Under the pieces are notes generated by a model. The model was not told where the DNA came from. It did not search any database and saw only the letters and a list, made by a program, of their open reading frames with translations. A stretch of DNA of 25,688 bases from a virus. Positions 4,971 through 22,946 of this stretch are shown here, in pieces (position 1 is the first letter of the stretch; every line of letters starts with the position of its first letter). A program made the position numbers and the translations under genes. Location of the stretch: IMG/VR virus record IMGVR_UViG_3300025423_000080, positions 1 to 25,688 of that record, one strand, 5' to 3'.

Positions 4971-4975
4971 AGATG

Positions 4976-4983
4976 TATTTAGT
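4976..4983 (-). promoter_or_regulatory. ACTAAATA box, putative phage promoter
   Basis: On the minus strand ACTAAATA stands five bases before the ATG at 4970. The same octamer class (RCTAAATA) precedes five other block-starting genes. Placed as a T4-type late box (-13 to -6), transcription would begin at the start codon itself. Confidence 0.5.
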
Positions 4984-4990
4984 ATTACTA

Positions 4991-5013
4991 GAAAAGAGCC
5001 CCTAAGGGCTCTT
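4991..5013 (-). terminator. Factor-independent terminator after the HNH-like gene
   Basis: AAGAGCCC (4994-5001) and GGGCTCTT (5006-5013) form a perfect 8-bp stem with a 4-base loop. On the minus strand it is followed by TTTTC. It begins one base after the stop of the HNH-like ORF, so that ORF is closed off from the connector block. Confidence 0.8.
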
Positions 5014-5014
5014 G

Positions 5015-5515
5015 TTATCTACTTTTTCTATTTGCCGTATAGTTGTCGGCATATTGTGCTACTCTAGTATCTGTTGCCTTTGTAAGACCTTTATTCCAGG
5101 CACCATTATGGGCTGCTCGTCTTGCCTCACTCCAGGGTTTTTTATTAGCTAAAGATTTTTTCTTTCGTGTTTCTTCTGATTGCGGAGCTCTTTTTAATGC
5201 AGCCTCACGCATTGCCGTTTTTGCCTCTTCTGACATTTTCTTACCTAACCATGGGCCCGGCTTACCTTTATTGCCATCAGTGCTATTTTGTGTTGCTAAC
5301 ATTATCTCAACATTGTCTGGACTATATGGTCCAATATCGTTAAATCTTGCCATACAATATTGTCCGTGTTTATTTCCACGAAGTTCCCATTTACCACTTT
5401 CTTCCCACATTTTCCACCAAGTTTCAAATGTGAATAACCATTCAATGCCTCTTTTATCTGCGGCACATTTTTGTTGACAGTATCTTGCTCGTGGTGTAGG
5501 TTTTTTCTTCTCCAT
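5015..5515 (-). CDS. HNH-type homing endonuclease-like protein (copy 1)
   Basis: A 166-residue, Lys- and Arg-rich protein. Around residues 46-70 it has R-G-N-K-H-G-Q-Y-C-M-A-R-F-N-D-I-G-P-Y-S-P-D-N-V, followed by N77. The second copy at 11434-11865 shares the pattern RG-x-K-x-GQ-xx-MAR-xx-D-x-GPY-x-P-x-NV. Phage proteins with this block are commonly annotated as HNH endonucleases, but the classic His-Asn-His triad is not obvious to me. The C-terminal half (GKKMSEEAKTAMREAAL, then SEETRKKKS) looks like NUMOD3-type DNA-binding repeats, which accompany homing nucleases. GGAG lies six bases before the ATG. The gene sits between the terminator of the major capsid gene and its own terminator, as a free-standing insertion would. 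Confidence 0.65.
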   Translation of the reverse strand: MEKKKPTPRARYCQQKCAADKRGIEWLFTFETWWKMWEESGKWELRGNKHGQYCMARFNDIGPYSPDNVEIMLATQNSTDGNKGKPGPWLGKKMSEEAKTAMREAALKRAPQSEETRKKKSLANKKPWSEARRAAHNGAWNKGLTKATDTRVAQYADNYTANRKSR

Positions 5516-5525
5516 AATATCTCCA

Positions 5526-5553
5526 ATAAAAAAGGACTCCGAAGAGTCCTTTT
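5526..5553 (-). terminator. Strong terminator behind the major capsid gene
   Basis: On the minus strand AAAGGACTC-TTCG-GAGTCCTTT makes a 9-bp stem closed by a stable UUCG tetraloop and followed by TTTATT. It starts 27 bases after the capsid stop and would cap the most abundant message. Confidence 0.85.
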
Positions 5554-5579
5554 ATTTATAGTTAGAAAGAGATTAACTC

Positions 5580-6908
5580 TTAAAAACTTGTATTGTCCCA
5601 GGCGTTGAGGCGTTGGACGTATACAGATGGACGTAATTGACCTTCTGCGCCGTAGTTGTTTGTAGAACCACCGCTTACACCAACATAAGAACCGCTTGCG
5701 CTGATATCGTGCAATACTGCAACACCAGCTGGGTTACGAACGATAAGACAACCTTCAAGAATGAACTGATCCAAACTTGCGTCAGCGTTCGAGAACACTT
5801 CGTTGTTTGGTCCCAAGTCACGCAAGCTACCCCATTGTAGAACTTCTTCGTTCAAGAAATAGATTTGGTTGGAAGCACCAACTTGGTCCATAATCCAAGA
5901 ATCGAAAATTTCGTATGTGTAGTTGAAGTCACCTTCGTATGTAGCGATAGTGTCACCACGCTCGCTGTTAACGCGGTTAATGCCACGTGATGTTGGCATT
6001 GTGTCGCTCAAGTGAGTGCGCAAACTTGTTGGGCAAACGATTGTGCGAATTTTTGCGTTGAAACGCTTTTCAGCAGTTGTAACCAATTGCTTATACAAAC
6101 TTGGAGCGAATTGTTGCAAGTTAGAAGTATACTCATAGAATGAGCTACCAAGACCTTCACCATTGTTAGTGAAAGTTGTAGAACCAGCAGCAGCGGCTGT
6201 AGCACCGATTTCAAAAGCAGCGCCATTGAAGCCAGACTCGTTACCTGCGAATACAGCAGTTCCCAATGTATCGCTTGATTCAAAGTTGAACAAGTTAGTG
6301 ATACGGTTAGAAGTGATTTGCAAGTTACCTGTGCCATCACCAACGCTGAATGAGTGTGTGCCAGCGAACGAGTTCAAACTACCCATACGACGACCTGTTT
6401 GTGTTGCACCAGAAACTTGAACATTACCAGAGCTTGCTGTGCCGATGTAAGCTGCACCAGATTGGCCAGCATATTTTGTTCCGACTTGGTCGTTACGAAC
6501 GATTTGTGCTTCCACATCAAACATCAATTCGATCAATTGCTTGACTTCTTGATATGCTTGAGGATCGCCACCAGATTGTTCAACAGCACGAGCTGTTCCA
6601 GTTGCACCAACAACTGTTTGGAAAATCTGAGTGTAGTTACCCAAGTTAGCACGGCTGTTGCTTTCTGGAGTAGCACTTGTAACTGCCATACCTTCTTGCG
6701 CAGCTTGAACTGCTGGAGCACGATACACATCGTTTGTCCACAAAGGCAAAGTAGAAACTACTTTACGCTTTTTCGCCATGCACATATTTAAGACTGGGGT
6801 ATCGTCTTTAACGCGGTTGGACACATCTAAGTCCAAATCTTTTACTACGATGTCGGTCTGGTAAGCTGTTGTTCCGTTACCAATTGCCGAGGTTGTGATT
6901 GTTGCCAT
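5580..6908 (-). CDS. Major capsid protein (DUF5309/SU10-like)
   Basis: A 442-residue protein directly after the scaffold gene, with a good AGGAG site before the ATG. Near the N-terminus it has V-K-D-D-T-P-V-L-N-M (around 33-42) and T-L-P-L-W-T-N-D-V-Y (around 53-62). NYTQIF and V-G-A-T-G-T-A-R-A-V follow around residues 90-110, then a long helix ending in F-D-V-E-A. This order (D-x-T-P-x-L, W-x-T-D, sGTARAV, E-helix) is that of the DUF5309/SU10 capsid group with an HK97 fold. The C-terminal part holds the R-D-L-G-P-N-N-E and R-N-P-A-G-V-A-V segments usual for capsid shell strands. By family it builds the icosahedral shell. A GTTAAATA box 28 bases upstream and a strong terminator downstream suggest it can be transcribed as its own unit. 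Confidence 0.85.
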   Translation of the reverse strand: MATITTSAIGNGTTAYQTDIVVKDLDLDVSNRVKDDTPVLNMCMAKKRKVVSTLPLWTNDVYRAPAVQAAQEGMAVTSATPESNSRANLGNYTQIFQTVVGATGTARAVEQSGGDPQAYQEVKQLIELMFDVEAQIVRNDQVGTKYAGQSGAAYIGTASSGNVQVSGATQTGRRMGSLNSFAGTHSFSVGDGTGNLQITSNRITNLFNFESSDTLGTAVFAGNESGFNGAAFEIGATAAAAGSTTFTNNGEGLGSSFYEYTSNLQQFAPSLYKQLVTTAEKRFNAKIRTIVCPTSLRTHLSDTMPTSRGINRVNSERGDTIATYEGDFNYTYEIFDSWIMDQVGASNQIYFLNEEVLQWGSLRDLGPNNEVFSNADASLDQFILEGCLIVRNPAGVAVLHDISASGSYVGVSGGSTNNYGAEGQLRPSVYVQRLNAWDNTSF

Positions 6909-6936
6909 TATTATCTCCTAAATTAAGGCTTCATTT

Positions 6937-6944
6937 TATTTAAC
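6937..6944 (-). promoter_or_regulatory. GTTAAATA box before the capsid gene (weak candidate)
   Basis: The minus strand reads GTTAAATA 28 bases before the capsid ATG, overlapping the scaffold stop codon. It differs from RCTAAATA at one position. An extra promoter for the capsid gene would make sense, but an AT-rich chance match is possible. Confidence 0.3.
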
Positions 6945-8106
6945 GACTTCTTGATGCTCTTATCTGTCTGAGTTGAGCCATCAATAAGTTGTCTGCGGCT
7001 TTTTTATCGCCGCCCCTGGCTTGTGAGCGAAGACTTTGAATCTCATCCTTTTCACCGCTGGGAATTGCTGTTCCGGCTTTGCGATTAGTCAGTGCAGCAA
7101 TACTGCCACCTGCTGACTTGGCTTTTGGGCGATCACGATACTTCAGACCATCTCTAATCAATGACAAAATATGTTCATCACTGCTAATCAAGTCAATATT
7201 ATCTACGCCTGGAACTAATTGTGACTTAGCTCCTGACCAATCTTTAGCCACTTTCTCACGAATCTCATTATAGACATAACTATTCTTCAACTCCTTATCC
7301 TTGAAATTCTTTCTATTGTTCTCAAGAATCTCATTTACTTGATTCTTGCGAATAGCATAGAACTGCTCAACATTTGGCTTCAACTGACTCACCACTGCAC
7401 TTTGCTGACGAATATAATTTTCGTTTTGCTGCATTGATGCTTGAATTCTGGCAATTTGTGCCGGATCTCTTGCTTGTGCCAACTGTTGCTGGAAGGTGTT
7501 TTGATATCCCTGTGTCTTTATGATTTCATCGTAAGCCTTTTGTAGCTGCGGACGAACCGTAAATTCCATTGCCAACAATAAGCCCTCAGTTTCCTGACGC
7601 TTTTGTGTAAGGTATTCATCAAACTCTGCCTTTTCAACTTTTAGTTGTCGGGCATCTTCGCTAATTGCTGCTCCTTGGCCTAAAATGCTTGCTGCCTTCT
7701 TGGCGTCAATAACAATCTCTTTACCATTGCGCATAAACTTGAACTTGGCGTTCGGATTTTGTTCTGCGAAGTCTAAGAAATCTATTAACTCTTCGGCTGA
7801 TGTATTTGCTGTGCTTACCTCTTCAGGGGCGACTGCATCATCAGTGGCATCTGCATCTTCTGCTGTTGTAGCATCAACTTCTGGCTCGGTGTTTTCGTCA
7901 TCATTGACTTCAACTCCTTCTGGCGCCACAGGGGTCTCAGTCGCTGCCGCAGCTGGAACACCTGTTTCGACCGGATTGGTAGCAACTACTTGGTTACGCA
8001 TTGCGGCCATTTTCGCAGCTATTGACTCCAAACCTGAATCAATTTTTTGGACGGGGACCGTCTCCGCTACAGGGAGATTAGGTGCATCCTGAACTATATT
8101 GTCCAT
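6940..8106 (-). CDS. Capsid scaffolding protein
   Basis: A 388-residue protein immediately upstream of the major capsid gene. Residues about 40-105 are acidic and Pro/Ala/Glu/Asp-rich, followed by a short ordered segment (F-K-F-M-R-N-G-K-E-I-V-I-D, about 122-135). Then comes a long Gln/Glu/Ala-rich helical region (about 155-290) likely to form coiled coil. The C-terminus is basic (R-Q-I-R-A-S-R-S-R), as expected for a tail that contacts the capsid protein. Composition, length and position match scaffolds of P22- and SU10-type phages, which guide shell assembly and leave before DNA packaging. No protease motif is visible. AAAGGA lies before the ATG. Confidence 0.8.
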   Translation of the reverse strand: MDNIVQDAPNLPVAETVPVQKIDSGLESIAAKMAAMRNQVVATNPVETGVPAAAATETPVAPEGVEVNDDENTEPEVDATTAEDADATDDAVAPEEVSTANTSAEELIDFLDFAEQNPNAKFKFMRNGKEIVIDAKKAASILGQGAAISEDARQLKVEKAEFDEYLTQKRQETEGLLLAMEFTVRPQLQKAYDEIIKTQGYQNTFQQQLAQARDPAQIARIQASMQQNENYIRQQSAVVSQLKPNVEQFYAIRKNQVNEILENNRKNFKDKELKNSYVYNEIREKVAKDWSGAKSQLVPGVDNIDLISSDEHILSLIRDGLKYRDRPKAKSAGGSIAALTNRKAGTAIPSGEKDEIQSLRSQARGGDKKAADNLLMAQLRQIRASRSR

Positions 8107-8117
8107 TTACATTTCCT

Positions 8118-8471
8118 TTATGTGTTGGGCTCTACATTTGCTCGTTGCTCTTGTATCGTTACCACACGATTTTTTAACACTACTTGTCTTTTCAACAAGT
8201 TAATAAAACTATCTATAGCATTGAAGTGATTTGACAATGCTATTCGCTTGGCGTTATCCTCTTGTGTATAACCAGTGGTCTCATTTAAAGCATCCATCGT
8301 TTCCAGTTGGAACTGACGAACGAATAAAACGAAGTCACGGTTCTTTAACAGATTCTCGGCAGCGCTACCAAGATGTTTAACTTTGTCTGCTTGTGCAGTT
8401 GTAAGTTTGCTCAACTCAGTAACATTGACCAGGCGGTTATTAAACGCTTCAAATACATTATCTTCAATCAT
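8118..8471 (-). CDS. Small helical protein between portal and scaffold
   Basis: A 117-residue, mostly helical protein I cannot name. The core is NRDFVLFVRQFQLETMDALN, then T-Q-E-D-N-A-K-R-I-A-L-S-N-H-F-N-A-I-D-S-F. The sequence is soluble, with no membrane segment and no cysteines. Phages of this build often have a short helical protein at this place, so a role in prohead assembly is possible by position only. A TATAAATA sequence lies 19 bases before the ATG and GGA is the only ribosome-binding hint. Confidence 0.7.
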   Translation of the reverse strand: MIEDNVFEAFNNRLVNVTELSKLTTAQADKVKHLGSAAENLLKNRDFVLFVRQFQLETMDALNETTGYTQEDNAKRIALSNHFNAIDSFINLLKRQVVLKNRVVTIQEQRANVEPNT

Positions 8472-8490
8472 TTCAATTCCAATCTAAAGT

Positions 8491-8498
8491 TATTTATA
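8491..8498 (-). promoter_or_regulatory. TATAAATA, T4-late-like box (weak candidate)
   Basis: The minus strand reads TATAAATA, the exact T4 late promoter consensus, 19 bases before the ATG at 8471 and just after the portal stop. No gp55 or gp33 homologue is visible in this window, so the match may be chance. Confidence 0.3.
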
Positions 8499-8501
8499 CT
8501 T

Positions 8502-10823
8502 TTAGGGTCCGTAGGCTCTGGCCTTGTGTTCACCTATAAGTGCTACACCTTCTAGCTGTTTGCTTGCACTTGTGCCTTCAACATCAGCTTTGATTTGTTG
8601 TGCTTTCATTAAATCTAATTGTGCACCTGCTGTGTCTGCTTGTGCTCGTGCTTTGTCAGCAGCAGCTTTGGCCATTGCAAGTTGTTCTTGTGGGCTTGGG
8701 CCCATTTGTTGTTTGACTGCTTGAGCTTGTTTAATCATATCAACAACTTCATCTTTGGTTGGTAGATATGCGTCAGCATCTTTACAGCCCAATGCATACA
8801 AACTGTCTGCATATGGTTTACGGATCTTCTCAAACATAGTTGGGGTTAATGTGCCCTGAGCAACTGTGGCCTGAACTGTTTGATACAATTGTGTTTGTGT
8901 TTGTGCAATTACTTGTTGGCGTTGTAAAGCATTTTCATCGCTGCGCATACCCAATGCCAAGTCGATGTGAATTGTTTTGCGATCATTGAAACTCATATTC
9001 TCAGCAAAGTTTTCATAATCCATAAACACAGCTTTGCCTTCTGGGTGGAACTCTTGTGCAAGTTTCTTGACACCATAGTCATCGCCATATTGGATCAAGG
9101 TGCGCCAAATCAACCAAATAGCATCTTTAAGACCTTCTGCACAGTTTTTGACTGTGTTATCTTGAATAATTTGATTTGGTGTAAGAGCCAACTGCAACTT
9201 GATACCGCTGTTGCCCGGTGCCATAACTTCAGGATTAAATGTATCCTGTGGAGTTGTCATACCAATCATAGCCATTGTGTCTTGTTGCAATCTGTTCATT
9301 GCAGTGTCAATGAACTGTAGATTACCGTTTGGCAATGGTAATGGGTAAATGTCTTTGGTTGGGTCAAACTTGCTGTCCAAAATAAAGATAGCAGCTTCGC
9401 CATCTTGAATCATCTCAAAGTCTAATTTGTCTGGTTTAACACCAATACGGGGAGTTGCTTGTAGCAAGCCCATTTGTAGTTCTGCTCTGTGACCACTTGT
9501 TGCATATTCTTGCATTGGAACTACAGATTCAGCAATACTCATACCATAGAAGTTTTGTGCAAGTGGTTTTGGAACCATATTTGCAATTGGTATGAATTCT
9601 ACTTCACGGGCACTGATAACATATTGACCACTATAAATCAATTCTACCAGTTCAAGTTCGCCATCTCCGTCAATGTCGTATTTGTTATAGACGGTTAGCA
9701 CAGTGACTTGGCGTGCTTCTGGTTCTTGGGCAGCATAGCCCTGGGCTGGAAGTCCATTGATTGGCACCGAGTCTCTGGCGTGCAGTGCTAAGTTGTTTAA
9801 CAACGATCCAGCCTGATACGCTCCTACATTACTGTATTCGGCATAGATTTTGAATTCTTCTAAATCAATGTCAGGATACAGTTCTGTGGCTTCTTGAATG
9901 CTCATTGGCTTGTAATAGCCACAGAATGGTTGTTCTTCAATACTGATAACAGTTGGGTCACACATCCAATAGTGTTGTGCGATTGGTCTGAATTTAATGT
10001 TTAGATTATATCCAGTTAGTTTGTATTTGGCTTCGTAAACAGTGTTGCGACGAATTGCTGCATTGATTTCGCTTTGCGTATCTTCTGTTTCAAGATTGGG
10101 CGCATCTTCTGTCATTGCATCAAAGTCACCATCAGCAGCTCTGAAGCTGATATCAATGTGATGTTGAATTGTTGCTGCTCTTTGATCCTCTGGCAAGTGT
10201 TGAACATATTGTTGAATCTCTGCCATGGCTTTTTGATAATCAACCTTTTGCTTACGACGACTTTGACGCAATGCTTTTAAGCCAGCTTCTTCTGCTTGTT
10301 GTTCAAAAGCTGCAAGTTGGTCTTCTGTGCCCTGTGTTGTAACATAGCGTGTAAAACTTTCACGCATTGGGCTAACCATCATCTCACCGTTTTTGTGCAA
10401 GCAAGCATCCATTACCCAATGTTGCAAAATAAAATGTGGGTCATTGTTGCTGTTGATGATTTTGTTTACCATATTTGTTGCTTGACGGGCTGCGTCAGCA
10501 TCTGCTTCATCATCTGCAACAAACTCAAATTGAATTTCACCGTTCTGTGCTAGACCTTTGGTGATGACTGCTGTAGCGTAATCTACTGTGGGCTTGACAA
10601 CTGGATGGATGTAATCTAGACCATTGACTGGTTCTGTTGATTGTGTAACTGCCAGAACCAAATAGTGATAGTCCGAGCTTCTGTTGATATTGTTCTTGGT
10701 GGCCAACAAACGCAGGTTTGCTGCACATTTTGCGTCAAGCAGCGACTTCATTTTTACAAAGCGGGCCATCATACCCTTGTGATTGTTTAAGTTACTGATG
10801 ACTACGTTTTTCAAATCTAACAT
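8502..10823 (-). CDS. Portal protein, P22-like
   Basis: A 773-residue protein between the terminase and scaffold genes, within the 700-780 range of P22-type portals. An N-terminal helical part (1-60) leads into NGLDYIHPVVKPTVDYAT (68-84) and a crown/wing region. The conserved stem and clip stretch F-I-P-I-A-N-M-V-P-K-P-L-A-Q-N-F-Y-G-M-S-I-A-E (410-432) follows. Residues 383-394, D-I-D-G-D-G-E-L-E-L-V-E, match the 12-residue EF-hand calcium loop. The C-terminus (about 695-765) is an Ala/Gln/Lys-rich helix like the barrel of P22-like portals. By family it forms the dodecameric DNA entry ring at one capsid vertex, where the terminase docks. AAAGGAT precedes the ATG by five bases. Confidence 0.85.
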   Translation of the reverse strand: MLDLKNVVISNLNNHKGMMARFVKMKSLLDAKCAANLRLLATKNNINRSSDYHYLVLAVTQSTEPVNGLDYIHPVVKPTVDYATAVITKGLAQNGEIQFEFVADDEADADAARQATNMVNKIINSNNDPHFILQHWVMDACLHKNGEMMVSPMRESFTRYVTTQGTEDQLAAFEQQAEEAGLKALRQSRRKQKVDYQKAMAEIQQYVQHLPEDQRAATIQHHIDISFRAADGDFDAMTEDAPNLETEDTQSEINAAIRRNTVYEAKYKLTGYNLNIKFRPIAQHYWMCDPTVISIEEQPFCGYYKPMSIQEATELYPDIDLEEFKIYAEYSNVGAYQAGSLLNNLALHARDSVPINGLPAQGYAAQEPEARQVTVLTVYNKYDIDGDGELELVELIYSGQYVISAREVEFIPIANMVPKPLAQNFYGMSIAESVVPMQEYATSGHRAELQMGLLQATPRIGVKPDKLDFEMIQDGEAAIFILDSKFDPTKDIYPLPLPNGNLQFIDTAMNRLQQDTMAMIGMTTPQDTFNPEVMAPGNSGIKLQLALTPNQIIQDNTVKNCAEGLKDAIWLIWRTLIQYGDDYGVKKLAQEFHPEGKAVFMDYENFAENMSFNDRKTIHIDLALGMRSDENALQRQQVIAQTQTQLYQTVQATVAQGTLTPTMFEKIRKPYADSLYALGCKDADAYLPTKDEVVDMIKQAQAVKQQMGPSPQEQLAMAKAAADKARAQADTAGAQLDLMKAQQIKADVEGTSASKQLEGVALIGEHKARAYGP

Positions 10824-10851
10824 TTTTTATCCTTTGTTAATGTCTGCACAA

Positions 10852-11415
10852 TTAATCTTTAATAATCCAGGCAGCGTGTGGTAAATTCACATCTGTGTGC
10901 AATTTAATACCTTTGGCAACAACAAATTCATCCACTGCCTTACGTGCTCCCAAACAACTTGGAGCCTGATAGTCATCAAACGCCACGATTCCACCAGAGA
11001 CCATTTTTGGCCAAGCAAAATCCAGAGTAGCCAAATAACCTTCATACAAATCCAAATCAAGATGCAAGAATGCAATTTTGCAATCATCTTTACCTGCAAA
11101 TGTGTCAGGGATCCAACCTTTATTGATTTCTACTGAGGGCTTGTCTTTGAAATATTCAACAACAGTGTCATAGTTTGCATCATTGAAGTCACCAGCTTTG
11201 TGCATATTATCGTGTTCTGATTGTTGTGGTAAACCTTCAAAACTGTCAAACAAACGTAGTTGTCTTTGTTTGGGCATACGATCATAAATCATTGATGCTG
11301 ATCCACCATTGTATACTCCGCATTCCCAAAATTCACCATCAGCAAGAGTAACTGCGTTATCTAACAAAATATTCAATGCAGTTATGTTTTCTCTTGACAA
11401 AATTGTTGGTAGCAT
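10852..11415 (-). CDS. TylF/MycF-like SAM-dependent O-methyltransferase
   Basis: A 187-residue protein with a class I methyltransferase layout. The SAM-binding strand and loop are E-F-W-E-C-G-V-Y-N-G-G-S-A (28-40). The acidic second strand is R-L-F-D-S-F-E-G-L-P (54-63). H-K-A-G-D-F is at 72-77, F-L-H-L-D-L-D-L-Y-E at 116-125, and G-I-V-A-F-D-D-Y at 142-149. The D120/D122 and D147/D148 pairs sit where TylF and MycF sugar O-methyltransferases hold their metal. The family methylates hydroxyls on sugars; the substrate here is unknown and could be a glycan of the host or virion. The gene is wedged between portal and an HNH-like ORF in the packaging module, has an AGGA site, and may have its own AATAAATA promoter box at 11442-11449. 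It is shorter than bacterial TylF (about 250 residues) but looks intact. Confidence 0.75.
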   Translation of the reverse strand: MLPTILSRENITALNILLDNAVTLADGEFWECGVYNGGSASMIYDRMPKQRQLRLFDSFEGLPQQSEHDNMHKAGDFNDANYDTVVEYFKDKPSVEINKGWIPDTFAGKDDCKIAFLHLDLDLYEGYLATLDFAWPKMVSGGIVAFDDYQAPSCLGARKAVDEFVVAKGIKLHTDVNLPHAAWIIKD

Positions 11416-11433
11416 TCTTTATTATCCTATCGA

Positions 11434-11865
11434 TTATCTATTATTTATTGTTTGCTCAGCCGACGGGATTGAACGGTTGCGTTTAGCTTCCCAAGTGGCT
11501 TGTATTTTTGCTCTACGCTCAGTAGACCAGGCAGCATTCTTGCGTCCAGGGGGTTTAGGACGTTTGTTTAGTTCTGCAAGTTTAGCAAGAGTTTCAGGTG
11601 AATGACGATGACCTTTTTGCCAACCCAATCCATTGGCACAAGATTCACTATGATTTTCATTGCTTGTTACTTTGCGCACATTATTTGGATGGTATGGGCC
11701 CGTGTCACCGTTGCGTGCCATTACAAGCTGTCCTGATTTTGTGCCACGATTTACTATGTCATCGCCCCACCATTCTAACCAGGATTCATAAGTAAATTCC
11801 CAGTCAATGTTGCGTATTTTAGCAAAGTGTTTTTGATTATTGTATTTTTTACGATATGAGTTCAT
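11434..11865 (-). CDS. HNH-type homing endonuclease-like protein (copy 2)
   Basis: A 143-residue basic protein of the same family as the ORF at 5015-5515. It has W-E-F-T-Y-E-S-W (22-29) and RG-TKSGQ-LVMAR-NGDTGPYHPNNV (40-63), followed by N69/N71 and a Lys/Arg-rich tail (G-H-R-H-S-P-E-T-L-A-K-L-A-E-L, then R-R-A-K-I-Q-A) like NUMOD3 DNA-binding repeats. No Shine-Dalgarno is evident before the ATG, 13 bases below the terminase stop. Placement next to a conserved packaging gene is typical of free-standing homing nucleases. The metal-binding triad is not certain, so 'nuclease' is by family resemblance. Confidence 0.6.
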   Translation of the reverse strand: MNSYRKKYNNQKHFAKIRNIDWEFTYESWLEWWGDDIVNRGTKSGQLVMARNGDTGPYHPNNVRKVTSNENHSESCANGLGWQKGHRHSPETLAKLAELNKRPKPPGRKNAAWSTERRAKIQATWEAKRNRSIPSAEQTINNR

Positions 11866-11878
11866 ACACTATTTTAAC

Positions 11879-14603: not shown

Positions 14604-14615
14604 TTCTGTTCCTTA

Positions 14616-14649
14616 AAATAAAAATATGGCCAGATTACACTCTGGCCAT
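14616..14649 (-). terminator. Terminator between small-protein cluster and terminase block
   Basis: On the minus strand ATGGCCAGA-GTGTAA-TCTGGCCAT forms a perfect 9-bp stem (14626-14634 with 14641-14649), followed by ATTTTTATTTT. It begins seven bases after the stop of the 114-residue gene. Confidence 0.85.
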
Positions 14650-14656
14650 CCAGTGT

Positions 14657-15835: not shown

Positions 15836-15839
15836 AATA

Positions 15840-16181: not shown

Positions 16182-16183
16182 AA

Positions 16184-16567: not shown

Positions 16568-16568
16568 T

Positions 16569-16841: not shown

Positions 16842-16852
16842 TGTAGTTCCTT

Positions 16853-17167
16853 TTATAGTTTGCCGTCACTGAAACGGTCTTCTTCTGGATTGATTAACTG
16901 CCCTTGAGCACGAGTCATCATATTGCGATCTCTGACAACTTTCTGTGCTTCAACATCTCGTGCCACTTTTTCGTGATAATGACGACTGCGTTTTGCGCTG
17001 TGTTCGCTGTGATGCGCTGTAGAACGCTCTTTGCGATCACGCTTTTTAGCTTCACCAGCTTCACTGTAGGCAATTGCTACAGCTTGTTTCTGTGGCTTGC
17101 CAGCAGCCATTTCAGCCTTGATGTTATGCTGAAATGCTTTGTTGCTTTTACCTTTTTCTAATGGCAT
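16853..17167 (-). CDS. Small basic phage protein, 104 aa
   Basis: The N-terminus (MPLEKGKSNKAFQHNIKAEM, then A-A-G-K-P-Q-K-Q-A-V-A-I-A-Y-S) is a pattern seen again and again in short phage proteins of unknown role ('K-G-x-S-x-x-A-x-x-x-N-I-K-x-E-M-x-A-G-K-P-x-K-Q-A-x-A-I-A'). The remainder is His/Arg/Lys-rich (S-A-K-R-S-R-H-Y-H-E-K-V-A) and ends in N-P-E-E-D-R-F-S-D-G. AGGAC precedes the start, and an AATAAATA box lies 21 bases upstream. Possibly nucleic-acid binding by charge. Confidence 0.65.
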   Translation of the reverse strand: MPLEKGKSNKAFQHNIKAEMAAGKPQKQAVAIAYSEAGEAKKRDRKERSTAHHSEHSAKRSRHYHEKVARDVEAQKVVRDRNMMTRAQGQLINPEEDRFSDGKL

Positions 17168-17188
17168 TTTATGTCCTGTTGTATCTTT

Positions 17189-17196
17189 TATTTATT
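17189..17196 (-). promoter_or_regulatory. AATAAATA box before the 104-aa gene (weak candidate)
   Basis: The minus strand reads AATAAATA 21 bases before the ATG at 17167, overlapping the stop of the 20-residue ORF. It fits the T4-late-like N-A-T-A-A-A-T-A form but the stretch is AT-rich. Confidence 0.25.
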
Positions 17197-17254
17197 GTTT
17201 GTTTGGGGGTCGGTGTCGATGACCACAGATGGGGCATTCATCATTCATATACAT
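17192..17254 (-). CDS. Possible 20-aa mini zinc-knuckle protein
   Basis: A 20-codon ORF, MYMNDECPICGHRHRPPNKQ, starts directly after the TAA of the upstream 67-residue gene (TAA-ATG) with a GGTGG stretch five bases before the ATG. It carries C-P-I-C-G-H-R-H, two cysteines and two histidines spaced as in a small zinc knuckle. Without it an 87-base gap would remain in a cluster where genes otherwise touch. It may be translated by reinitiation. It is very short, and chance cannot be excluded. Confidence 0.4.
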   Translation of the reverse strand: MYMNDECPICGHRHRPPNKQ

Positions 17255-17458
17255 TTAACCACCCAATCCAGTTTGTGGGAACGATCTGGCATTAACTCTG
17301 GCATCACTGGGGTTCAACTTATCAATAGTTTTCTCGTGATAGTTCTTGCTGATGTTAGCCTGAAATGCACTGTGCGGCAATGTGAATGTTGGCTCTGTTT
17401 TAGTTTGGCCCCGAGTTGAGTGACCAGTTATGCCCAGTCTGCCTGTTGTCATTGTCAT
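17255..17458 (-). CDS. Unknown small protein, 67 aa
   Basis: A 67-residue hydrophilic protein, unrecognised. It has G-R-L-G-I-T-G-H-S-T-R-G near the start and a central Y-H-E-K-T-I-D-K-L-N-P-S-D-A-R-V-N-A-R segment. Its ATG overlaps the TGA of the upstream gene (ATGA), and a second ATG lies two codons on. The coupling is the main support for it being real. Confidence 0.6.
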   Translation of the reverse strand: MTMTTGRLGITGHSTRGQTKTEPTFTLPHSAFQANISKNYHEKTIDKLNPSDARVNARSFPQTGLGG

Positions 17459-17808
17459 TTTTTAGTTCCTGGTGCAGCAGCCAATGCAGCAAGTGCGTCA
17501 GCAAATGCCTGTGCTTTGTCTGCGATTGCGTCTTCTGATTCTACAACTTCAACCGATTGTAAATCAGGCATCAACTTACCTGCCAAAAGTGTGTGATATT
17601 TTAAGGTCAAAGCATCATTTGACTGACGGGCTTTTAAAAAGTCCTCAATTAATATTTCTTCATAAACTTGACCACTTTTGTCATACAACATGTCAATTAC
17701 CGTTTGGACCGTTGCCTTATCTATTTTGTTTTTACTTCCAGGTTTTCTTCCGGCACCTTCTCTGTGGCCACCGCGATTTGATTTTTTAATGATATCTTTA
17801 TCAGACAT
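17455..17808 (-). CDS. Candidate terminase small subunit
   Basis: A 117-residue protein whose N-terminus reads N-R-G-G-H-R-E-G-A-G-R-K-P-G-S-K-N-K (11-28), the basic Gly-Arg-Pro-Gly-Ser-Lys start found on many phage small terminases and related DNA-binding proteins. A helical core follows (T-V-Q-T-V-I-D-M-L-Y-D-K, F-L-K-A-R-Q-S-N-D-A-L-T-L-K-Y-H). The end is acidic then Ala-rich (A-D-A-L-A-A-L-A-A-A). By family it would recognise viral DNA and load TerL. TGGAG lies nine bases before the ATG, and the start overlaps the GIY-YIG stop by eight bases. If correct, it lies about 4 kb from terL, which is unusual. The 94-residue gene beside terL is the rival candidate. Confidence 0.45.
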   Translation of the reverse strand: MSDKDIIKKSNRGGHREGAGRKPGSKNKIDKATVQTVIDMLYDKSGQVYEEILIEDFLKARQSNDALTLKYHTLLAGKLMPDLQSVEVVESEDAIADKAQAFADALAALAAAPGTKK

Positions 17809-18319
17809 AATGTAACTCCAATTCTATTCCAAATAATGCACTAATACCAGGTATCATATGTTTAATCTCTGCTGCATTCTTTTCTTTAATAACAGAAAAG
17901 AAGTTTGTTAGATAATGATACTCAAACGAATGACCTGAGATTTTCTTTAATTCTTTATTAAATTCTGGCCAAATGACAGCGACTTTATTTCTTGTGCCAG
18001 TAACTTTAATTTGTATTTCTGGTCGTCTTGCTATAGCACGCGCCACATCATATGGGGGATAACCATTGCTTCTGTTGAAACTATTTGGATTATCTCTGGC
18101 ATTTAACTTCTTGAGCATTTTAATCTCAAGTGCCATCATTTGTTTTTTGGTGCCATATCTTAATATTTTGCGTGTCCATCTTTCAGGATATTGTTCTATA
18201 TCAGGTTTGGCATAGATACTGCTACAGATATATCCATCGTCGGGAGTTCCTTTATGATAGCCAACATACCATCTGCCATCATCTCGTCTCCAACGGTAAA
18301 CAAACGCTTCATTACTCAT
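17801..18319 (-). CDS. GIY-YIG homing endonuclease
   Basis: A 172-residue protein with an N-terminal GIY-YIG domain: F-V-Y-R-W (6-10) as the GIY strand, R-W-Y-V-G-Y-H (16-22) as the YIG strand, then G-T-P-D-D-G-Y-I-C-S-S (24-34), W-T-R-K-I-L (48-53), and M-M-A-L-E-I-K-M-L (61-69) with E65 as the likely catalytic glutamate. N-x-x-S-x-N-R-S-N-G at 76-86 completes the SegF-like pattern. The C-terminal half is presumably DNA-binding but shows no named motif. The gene lies just before the candidate small terminase and overlaps it by eight bases, as mobile endonuclease genes often do. No Shine-Dalgarno is present; an ACTAAATA box ends five bases before the ATG. Confidence 0.8.
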   Translation of the reverse strand: MSNEAFVYRWRRDDGRWYVGYHKGTPDDGYICSSIYAKPDIEQYPERWTRKILRYGTKKQMMALEIKMLKKLNARDNPNSFNRSNGYPPYDVARAIARRPEIQIKVTGTRNKVAVIWPEFNKELKKISGHSFEYHYLTNFFSVIKEKNAAEIKHMIPGISALFGIELELHYV

Positions 18320-18324
18320 ACAAA

Positions 18325-18332
18325 TATTTAGT
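18325..18332 (-). promoter_or_regulatory. ACTAAATA box, putative promoter of the small-protein/terminase operon
   Basis: The minus strand reads ACTAAATA five bases before the ATG at 18319, the same spacing as at 4976. A terminator lies just upstream, so a fresh promoter is needed for the block that follows. Confidence 0.55.
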
Positions 18333-18359
18333 CAGTTAAAATATCTGCGGGAGGGCAGT

Positions 18360-18381
18360 AAAAAAGCCCCATTTAAGGGGC
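18360..18381 (-). terminator. Terminator overlapping the end of the 67-aa gene
   Basis: On the minus strand GCCCC-TTAAAT-GGGGC followed by TTTTTT (stem 18366-18370 with 18377-18381). The stop codon of the upstream gene lies in the loop, so translation reaches into the hairpin. Confidence 0.75.
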
Positions 18382-18576
18382 CTTAACCAAACTGCGTCTA
18401 GTGCGGGGCTTTTTCACAATGGGTTCTGCTGCGGGAGCATTGAGCCAAGTAATCTGACTTGGTGTGTAGCCGGGATGGGCAAGTGTGGCTTTGCGCTGTG
18501 CCATTATGGCATTCTCTGCTGCCACTTCTACTGTAATCTCAAAATGCTTGATGAGTTTTATCTTGTATTGGTTCAT
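18373..18576 (-). CDS. Unknown small basic protein, 67 aa
   Basis: A 67-residue protein, unrecognised. It begins with a likely beta hairpin (Y-K-I-K-L-I-K-H-F-E-I-T-V-E-V), followed by an Ala-rich helix (A-A-E-N-A-I-M-A-Q-R-K-A) and a basic tail (V-K-K-P-R-T-R-R-S-L-V-K). The ATG overlaps the upstream TGA (ATGA), and its end lies in a terminator. Confidence 0.65.
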   Translation of the reverse strand: MNQYKIKLIKHFEITVEVAAENAIMAQRKATLAHPGYTPSQITWLNAPAAEPIVKKPRTRRSLVKAP

Positions 18577-18911
18577 TCTGTTATGGTAATGCTGTGTGTT
18601 TGGTTTGAGATATACTCTTGTAGTTCATAGTGGGGTTTATTCCAGTTCAAACTGCCTCTGTTTGGAGTTAAGGGTCTGTCTGTTAAATGTCCATCACAGA
18701 GATGTGCGCCCCATATGCCCTTAGTGTATTTTAACTCTTTTCCGCATCCAGGACAAAGGGGTTTGACCACAGCTCTGCGTTTATGACCTCTGGCATCTGT
18801 TTTTTCTATTTCTTTTATGGGTTCGTCAAAATCCCACTTGTAGTATTCATTGACTTTTTTGAGTCCGGGATATAATATCTTATAGACTGTGATTAGTGTT
18901 TTCTTGCTCAT
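18573..18911 (-). CDS. Small zinc-ribbon-like protein, 112 aa
   Basis: The ATG at 18911 (MSKKTLITVY) is preferred over an in-frame TTG at 18938, because neither has a Shine-Dalgarno and a GTAAATA sequence ends four bases before the ATG, much like the two ACTAAATA-ATG genes. The protein has a basic K-R-R-A-V-V-K-P-L-C-P-G-C-G-K-E-L segment near 45-60 and a later H-L-C-D-G-H, so C-x-x-C with a distal C/H could form a zinc ribbon. No known enzyme motif is seen. It is divergent to the plus-strand gene at 18972. Confidence 0.6.
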   Translation of the reverse strand: MSKKTLITVYKILYPGLKKVNEYYKWDFDEPIKEIEKTDARGHKRRAVVKPLCPGCGKELKYTKGIWGAHLCDGHLTDRPLTPNRGSLNWNKPHYELQEYISNQTHSITITE

Positions 18912-18915
18912 TGTG

Positions 18916-18922
18916 TATTTAC
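18916..18922 (-). promoter_or_regulatory. GTAAATA box four bases before an ATG (weak candidate)
   Basis: The minus strand reads GTAAATA-CACA-ATG. It resembles the CTAAATA-N5-ATG arrangement at 4976 and 18325 with one mismatch and one base less of spacing. Confidence 0.3.
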
Positions 18923-18943
18923 GGAAACCGGTTTTCAATTGGA

Positions 18944-18960
18944 TTAAATAAATCTATAAT
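18944..18960 (+). promoter_or_regulatory. TTAAATA plus TATAAT, putative promoter of the lone plus-strand gene
   Basis: TTAAATA (18944-18950) lies 21 bases and TATAAT (18955-18960) 11 bases before the ATG at 18972. TATAAT used as a -10 box would place the start within a few bases of the ATG and exclude the AAGGA site at 18961-18965. TTAAATA used as the box leaves that site in the leader, which I prefer. Confidence 0.4.
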
Positions 18961-18971
18961 AAGGAAATGAT

Positions 18972-19280
18972 ATGAACCGTAAAGTAAAATATGATAAGAA
19001 CGAAAACAAGTTTTTTGGTGCTAATAAAGTATCAGTGATGCAGGCATTTGAAACTGCTGTGTTGTTAATGGAACAGGCTGGCTGCACCGAAGAAGACATT
19101 ATGAAGTATGTGCATATGGTGCATATGGGTTGGATCCGTGATGGAGCATTAGCACCCGAGTATGTTGAGTTGTGCGCTCAAGTTCAGCGTGAGCAGGCAG
19201 AGGAGGAAGTTATGCAGGCCAGAATCAATGCACTGCGTGAATCAGCGCAAACTTCTATTGTCAGCGATTACCGAGCATAA
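18972..19280 (+). CDS. Unknown helical protein, 102 aa
   Basis: A 102-residue, mostly helical protein with no recognised domain: A-F-E-T-A-V-L-L-M-E-Q-A-G-C-T-E-E-D-I-M (25-44), M-V-H-M-G-W-I-R-D-G near 50, and a charged C-terminal helix (Q-R-E-Q-A-E-E-E-V-M-Q-A-R-I-N-A-L-R-E). AAGGA lies six bases before the ATG. It is the only plus-strand gene in the 18-21 kb stretch and is followed by a long inverted repeat and a bidirectional terminator. Confidence 0.7.
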   Translation: MNRKVKYDKNENKFFGANKVSVMQAFETAVLLMEQAGCTEEDIMKYVHMVHMGWIRDGALAPEYVELCAQVQREQAEEEVMQARINALRESAQTSIVSDYRA

Positions 19281-19288
19281 ATATTTTT

Positions 19289-19344
19289 GTGAGTCACGGA
19301 GCTTTTAACTGTCAGTTATTTTCCTTTTCCCTTCTGTGACTCAC
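19289..19344. repeat. 12-bp inverted repeat with pyrimidine-rich 32-base loop
   Basis: GTGAGTCACGGA (19289-19300) pairs with TCTGTGACTCAC (19333-19344): 12 pairs with one G-U. The loop holds AACT-GTC-AGTT (19307-19317), a short inner hairpin, and then a C/T tract. It is separate from the terminator that follows and is not inside a gene. It could be a structured 3' end, a small RNA or a protein-binding dyad. Confidence 0.6.
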
Positions 19345-19364
19345 ACTCCATAGTAGATAAAACA

Positions 19365-19395
19365 AAGCCCCAGTAGCAATATTGGGGCTTTTGTT
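19365..19395. terminator. Bidirectional terminator between convergent genes
   Basis: AAAGCCCCA (19365-19373) pairs with TGGGGCTTT (19383-19391). The plus strand continues TGTTTTA and the minus strand TGTTTTATC, so it can stop transcription from the plus gene ending at 19280 and from the minus gene ending at 19396. Confidence 0.75.
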
Positions 19396-19611
19396 TTATA
19401 GATATTCAATGAACTTGTATGGTCCTCTGTCATCGTCATACCAATGATGATCGTTAAGTTTGAGCAAGATGAATGTGATGTTGGGGTGCTCTATTGGCAC
19501 CATAAGCAGCATACCAACTTGCTTTAAGTCGCTGTAGTCATCTTCGAATATCAAGTCACTGAGACCTTCAACTCGATTTAACAGATTTGCGGGGATTTGT
19601 AAGTATTTCAA
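19396..19611 (-). CDS. Unknown small protein, 71 aa
   Basis: An acidic 71-residue protein, unrecognised: Q-I-P-A-N-L-L-N-R-V-E-G-L-S-D-L-I-F-E-D-D-Y near the start, a hydrophobic strand G-M-L-L-M-V-P-I, then H-H-W-Y-D-D-D-R-G-P-Y. The listed ATG lies 44 bases inside the upstream gene in another frame, a large overlap for this phage, so a later start or a frameshifted fusion is possible. Its stop is next to the bidirectional terminator. Confidence 0.5.
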   Translation of the reverse strand: MKYLQIPANLLNRVEGLSDLIFEDDYSDLKQVGMLLMVPIEHPNITFILLKLNDHHWYDDDRGPYKFIEYL

Positions 19612-19936
19612 TTTGTCTATATTGTAATATGTCTATGATATCAGATTCTGATAAGGGTGTAATCATTTGCGGGTAACTGTCTGCACTGATAACTGGGGTA
19701 TTTTGCTGTGTTCTGCGCTCTGTTCTGATTAGACCAGTGTAAGCTCCATATGGGATACTACCAGTGCATATCAGTTCCCAATTACAGCGAGTCCAGTTTC
19801 GCATTGTTGGATCTATGACACTAACATAATAGGTCAAGTCTTCTAGGTCTACAAATCCAACTTCGTATATGTAATCACCTGTGCCTCTTTTTGATAGCTT
19901 TGCATTGATATCAACTAATAGGTATTCTCGTGCCAT
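19568..19936 (-). CDS. Unknown protein, 122 aa
   Basis: A 122-residue protein, unrecognised. The N-terminal half is beta-rich (E-Y-L-L-V-D-I-N-A-K-L, Y-I-Y-E-V-G-F-V-D-L-E-D-L-T-Y-Y-V-S-V-I-D). Next comes N-W-T-R-C-N-W-E-L-I-C-T-G. The end is a helix with S-E-S-D-I-I-D-I-L-Q-Y. GGGAG precedes the ATG, and a GCTAAATA box lies 19 bases upstream, so it heads its own transcript. Confidence 0.65.
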   Translation of the reverse strand: MAREYLLVDINAKLSKRGTGDYIYEVGFVDLEDLTYYVSVIDPTMRNWTRCNWELICTGSIPYGAYTGLIRTERRTQQNTPVISADSYPQMITPLSESDIIDILQYRQIEILTNPRKSVKSS

Positions 19937-19955
19937 TTCGTTCTCCCATATATCT

Positions 19956-19963
19956 TATTTAGC
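19956..19963 (-). promoter_or_regulatory. GCTAAATA box, putative promoter
   Basis: The minus strand reads ATATCTGCTAAATAAGATATAT just before the GGGAG site of the gene at 19936; the box is 19 bases from the ATG. The flanking ATAT on both sides is shared with the box at 21371. Confidence 0.5.
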
Positions 19964-19990
19964 AGATATTTGGGAAAATCGGTGAACCTG

Positions 19991-20635
19991 CTACTTGACT
20001 TGTTTACCCCATTGTCGTTGACATTCAATGGCCTCTGTAATGTTCAGTGTTGATTTTAAATTAGTGCGCAGATCCAAACTCACAATGTTTTGTCCATTGC
20101 TTTTCCAGCTGTTATCAACTGGTATAAAGATTTGATCGGCAATGGCAATCCAAGTAAAACAATATGTGTTTGCACCTATGCGTGTTGTGATTATTTGTAT
20201 ATCACCTTGGTTCTCAGCACCACTATAACGTCTGATACCTCCCAAACTATAAGAATTTAACAATGACAAGTCACAGTCAACTTCTTCACGCAATCTATTC
20301 ATATTGGGTCTGAGTTTATCAAAACCCTTTTCTTGAATGTTAAATTTAAAATCTTCACTGCGTTTGTGAGTTTTGGTATTTTCAAATCTAGCAATGCTGC
20401 CACCAATACCTTCGTTGTATATCAAATCCCAACTTTTAACCAAAATGCTATTATACTGATCCCAATTTTCTAGCACTGTTTCCAAATAAGAACTCATAGA
20501 AGGTGTTTTGATATACTCTGTGGGCTTTTTCAAATCTTCAATCTCTTTGATCCATTCTTGGTCACGTGAGTTGCCTGTGCCTTTAATTTCATATGCTGGT
20601 GTGTGATATCCAGTGCCATCCCAATGTTCTTTCAT
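19991..20635 (-). CDS. Unknown protein, 214 aa
   Basis: I chose ATG at 20635 (MKEHWDGTGY) over an in-frame TTG at 20662, because GGGAGGT stands six bases before it and the ATG overlaps the upstream TGA (ATGA). The protein has a helical N-terminal half (I-K-E-I-E-D-L-K-K-P-T-E-Y, L-E-T-V-L-E-N-W-D-Q-Y-N-S-I-L-V-K-S-W-D) and a beta-rich second half (D-I-Q-I-I-T-T-R-I-G-A-N-T-Y-C-F-T-W-I-A-I-A-D-Q-I-F). No enzyme motif, signal or membrane segment is recognised. Confidence 0.65.
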   Translation of the reverse strand: MKEHWDGTGYHTPAYEIKGTGNSRDQEWIKEIEDLKKPTEYIKTPSMSSYLETVLENWDQYNSILVKSWDLIYNEGIGGSIARFENTKTHKRSEDFKFNIQEKGFDKLRPNMNRLREEVDCDLSLLNSYSLGGIRRYSGAENQGDIQIITTRIGANTYCFTWIAIADQIFIPVDNSWKSNGQNIVSLDLRTNLKSTLNITEAIECQRQWGKQVK

Positions 20636-21339
20636 TTTGCACCTCCCACTCGTGATTGACAATCTAGAAAACTACGATTTGTTCTGCTGGGTAATGACAA
20701 TGGCTTGCCCCAAACACCTGCGCTTTGAAAATACTTTTGTTGTGCTGTCAGTGCTTTGTTGTTTATGGGTATTTCAATAATACCACTATAGTCACTAAAC
20801 CACAATGTCAATGTGTCAGCTTTGGGGTCTAGTGTTACTACCACATCAGGGAATACACTTTTGGTAGTTCGTTCAGTCAAATGACCAATCAACCAATGTT
20901 TGTTTTCTACGCTGAGTTCATATACAGCTTCGTCAAATTCATTTAAACGTTTGAAATCTCTGCCACGTTCCCTTGTAACCAAATATGCTGTGTAGTTCAT
21001 TGCTTCACAGTCTATGACCTGATCGTGTGTTTGCAAAGTAATATAAACTTGTTGTCTTGTGCCGTTTGGTTGTTTGATTTGGATTTCCGCGCCGCTGATT
21101 AAATCTCTGAGGCCTACGGCCCTGTCTTTGGGGTCCTCTCCGAGGGAGGGGCCAACAGGCGTCGGAGACGAGGTATCTCCTGCCACATCACGCAGTTCTC
21201 CGCGGGATGGGTTGTTTAGTTTTAAGTTTTTAGTTATTAAGTTATTAAATTCATTTCGCATTGCGATATCTGATTTCGCGGGTGCGATATCTGTTTTCGC
21301 GCCTAAGATTGAATTAATGATAGAAGATGTTGTTTGCAT
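20632..21339 (-). CDS. Unknown protein with odd GC-rich insert, 235 aa
   Basis: A 235-residue protein of unknown function. Residues 14-27 are two copies of A-K-x-D-I-A-(P/M), encoded by near-identical 19-base direct repeats. Residues 44-76 (P-S-R-G-E-L-R-D-V-A-G-D-T-S-S-P and following) come from a stretch that is 66% G+C by hand count, far above its surroundings, and can fold into hairpins. From about residue 83 a normal folded domain seems to begin (E-I-Q-I-K-Q-P-N-G-T-R-Q-Q-V-Y-I-T-L-Q). AAGGAAAAGGAAA precedes the ATG, with a GCTAAATA box further up. It ends in ATGA with the next gene. Confidence 0.6.
   Translation of the reverse strand: MQTTSSIINSILGAKTDIAPAKSDIAMRNEFNNLITKNLKLNNPSRGELRDVAGDTSSPTPVGPSLGEDPKDRAVGLRDLISGAEIQIKQPNGTRQQVYITLQTHDQVIDCEAMNYTAYLVTRERGRDFKRLNEFDEAVYELSVENKHWLIGHLTERTTKSVFPDVVVTLDPKADTLTLWFSDYSGIIEIPINNKALTAQQKYFQSAGVWGKPLSLPSRTNRSFLDCQSRVGGAK
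21111..21210. other. GC-rich palindromic island inside a coding region
   Basis: Hand count gives 66 G+C in 100 bases, while the next 100 bases are strongly AT-rich. CCTCTCC (21135-21141) pairs with GGAGGGG (21145-21151) around a GAG loop and extends by GG/CC across a one-base bulge. CCTGT (21121-21125) and ACAGG (21155-21159) pair outside it, and GGAGA (21164-21168) pairs with TCTCC (21176-21180). The frame stays open. Confidence 0.55.
21262..21301. repeat. Tandem 19-base direct repeat
   Basis: TGCGATATCTGATTTCGCG (21262-21280) and TGCGATATCTGTTTTCGCG (21283-21301) differ at one base and are 21 bases apart. They encode the repeated A-K-x-D-I-A-(P/M) of the 235-residue protein. Confidence 0.75.
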
Positions 21340-21370
21340 ATTTTCCTTTTCCTTGTTTAGTATATATGTT

Positions 21371-21378
21371 TATTTAGC
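21371..21378 (-). promoter_or_regulatory. GCTAAATA box, putative promoter
   Basis: On the minus strand GCTAAATA lies 31 bases before the ATG at 21339, with a Shine-Dalgarno in between and a perfect 13-bp inverted repeat ending two bases upstream of the box. Confidence 0.5.
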
Positions 21379-21380
21379 GC

Positions 21381-21412
21381 ATATCAACAAAAACTCCATT
21401 TTTTGTTGATAT
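21381..21412. repeat. Perfect 13-bp inverted repeat (hairpin A)
   Basis: ATATCAACAAAAA (21381-21393) and TTTTTGTTGATAT (21400-21412) are exact complements around the loop CTCCAT. The stem is AT-rich and lacks a clean U-run, so it is a poor terminator; an operator or RNA switch arm is as likely. Confidence 0.75.
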
Positions 21413-21449
21413 CTGGTTAAATAAGATTGTCTGGGATCAACCAGATATC
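21408..21449. repeat. Perfect 11-bp inverted repeat (hairpin B), overlapping hairpin A
   Basis: GATATCTGGTT (21408-21418) and AACCAGATATC (21439-21449) are exact complements with a 20-base loop. The arm shares GATAT (21408-21412) with hairpin A, so the two hairpins cannot form together. From 21450 to 21497 no further structure or ORF is seen. Confidence 0.7.
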
Positions 21450-21497
21450 TGAGGATAGCGTGGAGTATGTTTTTCTGGTTTCCACCACAAGCTCGAA

Positions 21498-22046
21498 TCA
21501 GCCCAGCCACTTGTAGCCATTGTTAAATCTGTGCTTCAAATAACTTGCAGCACGACGAGTAATACCATATTTCTCAGCACTCTCCTCTGTGCTGTGGTCA
21601 CGAATGTAACGCATCTGTTCTTCTGTATACTTGTAATTACGATTTTGTTTACGCACAGCATTACCTCGTTTTACGCCAGTGGGCTTTCTGCCTTTGGCAT
21701 ACTGCACTCTGTTTCTGTCAAAGCTAGTGCCCACAATCATATGCTCTGTGTTGCAGCAAAGTTGATTGTCGCAGAACTCGTGTATGACAAACTCATCTCT
21801 GGTTAGTTCTCTGCCAAGCTCTAGCATCATTGCAATTCTGTGCGTGACCTGCATCTGTCTTTTGCCCAATGCTGTGTTATAGACATTGAACATCCCATAG
21901 CCCTGTCTGTGCTTGCCTCCAACCCAAAGTTCGCAGCCATTGTCTTGTTGTATAATGCGGCTAAAGAATTTGGATTCGTTGATGGCAATGTTGCCAATAT
22001 AAATGTATTCGTGTGGGTTATGTAGGCCTTTTGGTCTTCCTGACAT
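21498..22046 (-). CDS. HNH homing endonuclease (HNH_3 type) with C-terminal HTH
   Basis: A 182-residue protein. C-E-L-W near 38-41, G-Y-G at 49-51, T-H-R (68-70) with H69, V-I-H-E-F-C-D-N-Q-L-C-C-N-T-E-H (87-102) and V-G-T-S-F-D-R-N (105-112) form the classic HNH_3 arrangement of H69, then H89-x-x-C-D-N, C-x-x-x-H and G-T-x-x-x-N. A C-terminal region (Y-T-E-E-Q-M-R-Y-I-R-D, S-A-E-K-Y-G-I-T-R-R-A-A-S-Y-L, 140-170) reads as a helix-turn-helix that would bind its target. By family it is a free-standing homing endonuclease that spreads by cutting unoccupied relatives. AAGGAG precedes the ATG; an ACTAAATA box lies 23 bases upstream in a divergent promoter region. Confidence 0.85.
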   Translation of the reverse strand: MSGRPKGLHNPHEYIYIGNIAINESKFFSRIIQQDNGCELWVGGKHRQGYGMFNVYNTALGKRQMQVTHRIAMMLELGRELTRDEFVIHEFCDNQLCCNTEHMIVGTSFDRNRVQYAKGRKPTGVKRGNAVRKQNRNYKYTEEQMRYIRDHSTEESAEKYGITRRAASYLKHRFNNGYKWLG

Positions 22047-22061
22047 ATTTTTCTCCTTGTG

Positions 22062-22109
22062 CTATAATATATTTAGTGTTTAGAATAACTATGCTAAATA
22101 ATATTATAG
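22062..22109. promoter_or_regulatory. Divergent promoter pair arranged as an inverted repeat
   Basis: ACTAAATATATTATAG on the minus strand (22062-22077) faces GCTAAATAATATTATAG on the plus strand (22093-22109), one for the HNH gene at 22046 and one for the GNAT gene at 22122. In addition CTGACA (22040-22045) and TATAAT (22063-22068), 17 bases apart, make a sigma70-type plus-strand promoter; its -35 overlaps the HNH start codon. Confidence 0.55.
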
Positions 22110-22121
22110 TAGGAGAATGAT

Positions 22122-22935: not shown

Positions 22936-22946
22936 AAGGAAATACA

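Follow-up and report, generated by a model that had tools for sequence, protein, structure and literature searches.

The 25,688-bp virus record IMGVR_UViG_3300025423_000080 from IMG/VR, analysed here over its whole length and referred to as the window, comes from a freshwater phage in which a short box, [A/C]TAAATA, recurs just upstream of genes and in their orientation. As a computational prediction, we consider it very probable that these boxes initiate transcription, and the identification of the box as a phage-specific promoter appears well supported by its frequency, placement and conservation. The overall explanation put forward here, to which we give an even chance, is that the boxes are T4-type late promoters read in trans by a sigma factor of the gp55 class.

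An earlier note on the window had proposed the octamer RCTAAATA as such a promoter. An exact-match search returned the six octamers listed there (4976, 18325, 19956, 21371 and 22070 on the minus strand, 22093 on the plus strand), against 2.15 ± 1.58 expected from dinucleotide shuffles, and six were reached in 2 of 100 shuffles. The count alone is modestly surprising, and it is the placement that carries the weight: all six are intergenic and on the sense strand, 5, 5, 19, 31, 23 and 21 nucleotides (nt) before a start codon, and none was found in coding DNA, as had been observed by eye. The octamer is enriched upstream of genes and not equally frequent inside them. Relatives with one mismatch were rejected as a motif class, as 46 were found (the six exact sites included) and 51 expected; because of this lack of enrichment, only variants preserving TAAATA were kept. 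The variants pointed out before the genes at 8471, 11415 and 17167 are TATAAATA at 8491 and AATAAATA at 11442 and 17189, and a further TATAAATA at 5553 had been missed. Three other sites had been described as one-mismatch relatives, which is correct for GTTAAATA at 6937 and ATTAAATA at 18943 but not for CGTAAATA at 18916, before the gene at 18911, which has two mismatches; all three were left out of the statistics.

The window represents bases 1-25,688 of a genome, A, which we take to be circular with 35,026 bp, because the ends of record G003 (35,153 bp; 100% identical to the window across the shared parts) overlap by 127 bp and their junction is read through by the window and by a third record, G004. 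The end overlaps of 104, 99 and 127 bp in the relatives B, D and F correspond to circular genomes of 36,657, 35,195 and 37,249 bp, and no end overlap was found in C (36,104 bp). Genome E (G025; 54,495 bp) carries the head and packaging module at 4300-13500 and again at 39558-48082, two copies with about 82% identity separated by about 35 kb, a duplication that suggests a chimeric assembly of two strains and for which E was handled as such. These six records, four of them circular (A, B, D and F), are the clade records considered below; genes in the relatives are mechanical calls, and distances in them are approximate.

Genome A is coding-dense, with non-coding DNA amounting to a few per cent, and of its 13 [A/C]TAAATA sites on both strands 12 are in the sense orientation, 5-37 nt before a start codon. 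Motif discovery over upstream regions, which the earlier note had recommended for the full genome and relatives, was performed as an unbiased k-mer test on 85 such regions of A and B and ranked TAAATA first among the 6-mers (29 regions versus 1.4 expected); CTAAATA occurs 17 times altogether in the two genomes and is present in 15 upstream regions. When each region was shuffled individually with its dinucleotides kept, sense boxes were expected in 1.95 ± 1.32 regions of A (maximum 8 in 1000 shuffles) and 1.09 ± 1.00 regions of B (maximum 5), compared with 12 of 44 and 12 of 41 regions observed. The base preceding TAAATA in the upstream regions of A is A in six cases, C in six, G in one and T in two, G and T being depleted. 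The true motif is [A/C]TAAATA: the promoter-like character assigned to RCTAAATA was retained, but the definition was too narrow, and the boxes of the 37-kb relative F are mostly TATAAATA.

Alignment of 27 sites of A and B on the box revealed no -35 element. The placement of the boxes is kept in relatives whose nucleotide identity is about 70-80%, with orthologous sites conserved in C, D, E, F, G010-G013 and H; the genes concerned include the portal gene and a gene for a protein of 205 amino acids (aa) adjoining the capsid gene, and boxes are also found between the divergent HNH and GNAT-like genes in C, D and E. At the 205-aa gene, A, B, C, D and one of the two copies in E (E2) share a terminator hairpin with a T-run, a box within about 10 nt and an ATG 4-5 nt further on, although the terminator stems differ in sequence. 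The recurrence of this order with differing stems argues for initiation at the box, and a further promoter could hardly be fitted in. The other E copy of this gene and the copy in H have the box with close spacing and no clear terminator, in L312 both terminator and box are present but the leader is longer, and F has neither a terminator nor the close box spacing. The orthologue of gene 18573-18911 in B is preceded by CCTAAATA 5 nt before the ATG.

Across A-F and H, the box-to-ATG spacing is bimodal, with 16 sites at 3-6 nt, five at 7-14 nt and 47 at 15-44 nt. Short spacing is rarer in gp55-bearing contigs (19 of 255 versus 16 of 68 in the clade; Fisher p = 0.0006, with orthologous sites not being independent). 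If transcription starts as in T4, mRNAs with a box 4-5 nt from the ATG are predicted to be leaderless, and both the spacing and the terminators are consistent with a start about 6 nt after the box. The features of the window are compiled in Table 1.

Table 1. Boxes, terminators and the sigma70-like promoter in the window; distances are from the element to the start of the gene named.
Feature	Position	Strand	Context
ACTAAATA box	4976..4983	-	5 nt before ATG of 205-aa virion-module gene 4353-4970; mRNA predicted to start without a leader
Terminator hairpin AAGAGCCC/GGGCTCTT	4994..5013		T-run toward minus strand; ends ~10 nt before 4976 box; equivalents in B, C, D, E2
TATAAATA box	5553..5560	-	37 nt before NUMOD3 endonuclease gene 5015-5515; hairpin within leader
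GTTAAATA weak variant	6937..6944	-	28 nt before major capsid gene 5580-6908
TATAAATA box	8491..8498	-	19 nt before gene 8118-8471; ACTAAATA in B with same spacing
AATAAATA box	11442..11449	-	26 nt before methyltransferase gene 10852-11415; within 3' end of adjacent open reading frame
AATAAATA box	17189..17196	-	21 nt before gene 16853-17167; in B ACTAAATA at 19 nt
ACTAAATA box	18325..18332	-	5 nt before ATG of Seg-like endonuclease gene 17801-18319; mRNA predicted to lack a leader
Terminator hairpin	18360..18383		Upstream of 18325 box
CGTAAATA weak variant	18916..18923	-	4 nt before ATG of gene 18573-18911; two mismatches to RCTAAATA
ATTAAATA weak variant	18943..18950	+	21 nt before plus-strand gene 18972-19280; in B AATAAATA at 18 nt
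GCTAAATA box	19956..19963	-	19 nt before gene 19568-19936, with Shine-Dalgarno site
GCTAAATA box	21371..21378	-	31 nt before gene 20632-21339, with Shine-Dalgarno site
ACTAAATA box	22070..22077	-	23 nt before HNH gene 21498-22046
GCTAAATA box	22093..22100	+	21 nt before GNAT-like gene 22122-22673, which leads plus-strand operon including GroES
Sigma70-like promoter CTGACA-17-TATAAT, extended -10	22040..22068	+	Plus-strand operon; best match in region, 11/12

In the mechanism proposed here, the single -10-like [A/C]TAAATA without a -35 element would be read by the bacterial core RNA polymerase carrying a late sigma factor of the gp55 class. With the start about 6 nt downstream, mRNAs from the closely spaced boxes would begin at the start codon or within one base of it, while the other genes preceded by boxes would have a longer leader with a Shine-Dalgarno site. 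The sigma70-like promoter at 22040-22068 is a signal separate from the boxes and may provide early expression. It belongs to the divergent intergenic region 22040-22110, where it lies together with an inverted repeat, CTATAATATATTTAG / CTAAATAATATTATAG, and one box per strand; the plus-strand operon continues after the GNAT-like gene with a GroES/Cpn10-like gene at 22932-23213 (PF00166), relatives of which are present in B, D, E and F. Because neither gp55 nor any other sigma factor, polymerase or helicase is recognisable in the genome, the factor that reads the boxes is most likely supplied in trans, with a co-infecting T4-like phage as its likeliest source. For the identity of this factor as gp55-class and its origin in trans, we regard the balance as level.

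The profile for gp55 (phrog_234) had no match at E<=10 in A-E or in MW202484.1 (Caudoviricetes sp. ctfne034), the closest annotated relative (identity of 51% for TerL, 46% for portal, 56% for capsid and 38% for GNAT), whereas the T4 control gave 2.5e-70; in F there was no match at E<=0.01. Sigma70_r2 (PF04542) matched nothing in A-F and matched the T4 control weakly. DnaB_C and DNA_pol_B were without a match in A-F, the T4 control matching for each, and DNA_pol_A matched only cellular controls and nothing in A-F. PHROG scans of the proteins contained neither gp33 nor gp45, at which no profile search was aimed. PHROG and Pfam scans of the larger A proteins and of most unassigned B-E proteins yielded no replication or transcription factor and no sigma factor; the matches among A-E proteins were to virion, tail-fibre, methyltransferase, GroES, Dps-like and endonuclease families. 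The window contains no Rfam family and no tRNA. Its phage has encapsidation genes of its own (TerL, portal and capsid), the portal matching the SU10 portal family. The earlier note had seen no sigma factor, which holds for the complete genome A in the profile searches; the idea that a phage-encoded sigma factor recognises the box gained no support, as the gp55 and Sigma70_r2 profiles had no match in the six clade records with positive controls. The conserved 102-aa protein encoded at 18972-19280 was considered as a sigma candidate and rejected, having no significant match in the PDB and a model whose confidence is moderate (predicted local distance difference test, pLDDT, score of 76).

The relatives of the endonucleases encoded at 5015-5515 and 17801-18319 are found mainly in T4-type phages of about 150-200 kb, which supports a trans-acting gp55-class sigma factor only indirectly. 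A search for partners in endonuclease exchange returned more members of the same clade and no T4-like contigs. Gene 5015-5515, which contains NUMOD3, is a paralogue of 11434-11865 (phrog_16521); its relatives lie between the capsid gene and the 205-aa gene in L314 and beside one or both of them in L312 and L313. Several observations weigh against a gp55-class factor supplied by a T4-like phage. The endonuclease at 5015-5515 is also shared by members of the clade, and in two scans with gp55 alignments the 80 best-ranked matches of each included no T4-like contig from the same samples. MW202484.1 also lacks a match to DnaB and to both polymerase profiles (PolA and PolB), yet it encodes Erf, SSB and RusA itself, and the missing polymerase genes may therefore reflect dependence on the host and not on a helper; reliance on the host is the simpler reading of the missing polymerase and helicase matches. 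It is also possible that a divergent self-encoded sigma factor is hidden among the clade-specific proteins, which mostly have no assigned function.

A self-encoded factor of this kind would mean that the boxes are late promoters served by a sigma that escaped recognition in the phage genome, comparable to the situation in phiEco32-like phages; we regard this as conceivable but rather unlikely. The SU10-family portal and several conserved small proteins without assigned function speak for it, as does the fact that phiEco32-like phages encode divergent sigma factors with short promoter elements (PMC8948821; PMC4281155). Against it stand the absence of gp55 or Sigma70_r2 matches in the clade records, the lack of a sigma match from the larger A proteins and most unassigned B-E proteins, the 102-aa protein without a convincing structural match, and the phiEco32 and 7-11 motifs (tAATGTAtA and GTAAtg-16-aCTA), which occur at chance level in the window. 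Direct reading of the boxes by a sigma factor of the host appears improbable: no phage sigma is recognisable and the phage carries a sigma70-like promoter, which implies that it uses the host polymerase for some of its genes, but the boxes have no -35 element and we know of no bacterial sigma factor that uses [A/C]TAAATA alone. Moreover, MW202484.1 has nine [A/C]TAAATA sites, almost none of them before genes and without upstream enrichment.

That the boxes are not promoters, but signals for translation or RNA processing or simply AT-rich intergenic sequence, is very improbable in our judgement. The intergenic DNA is indeed AT-rich, TAAATA overlaps stop codons and many sites are near Shine-Dalgarno sequences; nevertheless, shuffles of the same upstream regions contain far fewer boxes, the first base is selected, and at the conserved site the boxes come straight after terminators. 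Least credible, with hardly any probability assigned to it, is the reading that the boxes came along with homing-type endonuclease genes acquired from T4-like phages and do nothing in the programme of the phage itself. Boxes do precede the endonuclease genes at 5015, 17801 and 21498, two of which have relatives in T4-like phages, but the majority stand before virion or unassigned genes, with positions conserved between orthologues, as at the 205-aa and portal genes.

Two further genes were noticed in the course of the analysis. The window encodes a Dps-like DNA-binding protein at 23530-23979 (phrog_3636), and relatives of it are encoded in B-F and in G013. In genome B, the open reading frame L089:1275-1784, with a homologue at 39046-39552 in E, adjoins the terminase region and by eye resembles an iron/manganese superoxide dismutase; the B protein had no significant match when scanned against PHROGs.

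T4-type late promoters are known together with gp55 in T4-like phages (the gp55/gp33/gp45 system). The boxes of the window resemble them in being a lone -10-like element ending in TAAATA, without a -35 element and in the sense orientation before genes. In gp55-bearing contigs, too, A and C are preferred before upstream TAAATA, with fractions of 0.41 and 0.25, compared with 0.12 and 0.09 for G and T. The T4 late promoter is TATAAATA at -13 to -6, and the late-promoter core of the T4-like Aeromonas phage Aeh1 is CTAAATA, beginning at -12 (PMC1524935). This core is identical to that of the window phage. The earlier claims that the box marks the starts of transcription units, as a promoter-like element, and resembles the T4 late promoter are supported. 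The differences from the T4-type system are the phage size of 35-37 kb, the SU10-type portal, the lack of a gp55 match and the leaderless-type spacing, which is commoner in the clade. The phiEco32-like phages (phiEco32, SU10 and 7-11) share the SU10-family portal, short late promoter elements and, as proposed here, a host core polymerase with an alternative sigma factor, but they encode this sigma factor themselves and use other motifs, and the SU10 genome is about 77 kb. MW202484.1 differs from genome A in its 41.8 kb and its genes for Erf, SSB, RusA and a Cro-like protein. T4-type late boxes that dominate a small unrelated clade without the factor would point to an unknown sigma family or to control by another virus. 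The latter would be realised if the 35-37 kb clade, which has virions of its own, consisted of satellite phages that rely on the late machinery of a T4-like helper for their late genes and perhaps also for replication, a tentative proposal that we consider unlikely. A published precedent is provided by the satellite phages MiniFlayer and MulchRoom, which have their own capsids and lack key replication genes (PMC10690885). They resemble the clade in their own capsid and packaging genes, the absence of key replication genes and the presence of HNH or GIY-YIG genes; they differ in their size of 15-17 kb and in having isolated helpers. If the satellite proposal were true, the clade would be a bacterial counterpart of the virophages, which share the late promoter of their giant virus.

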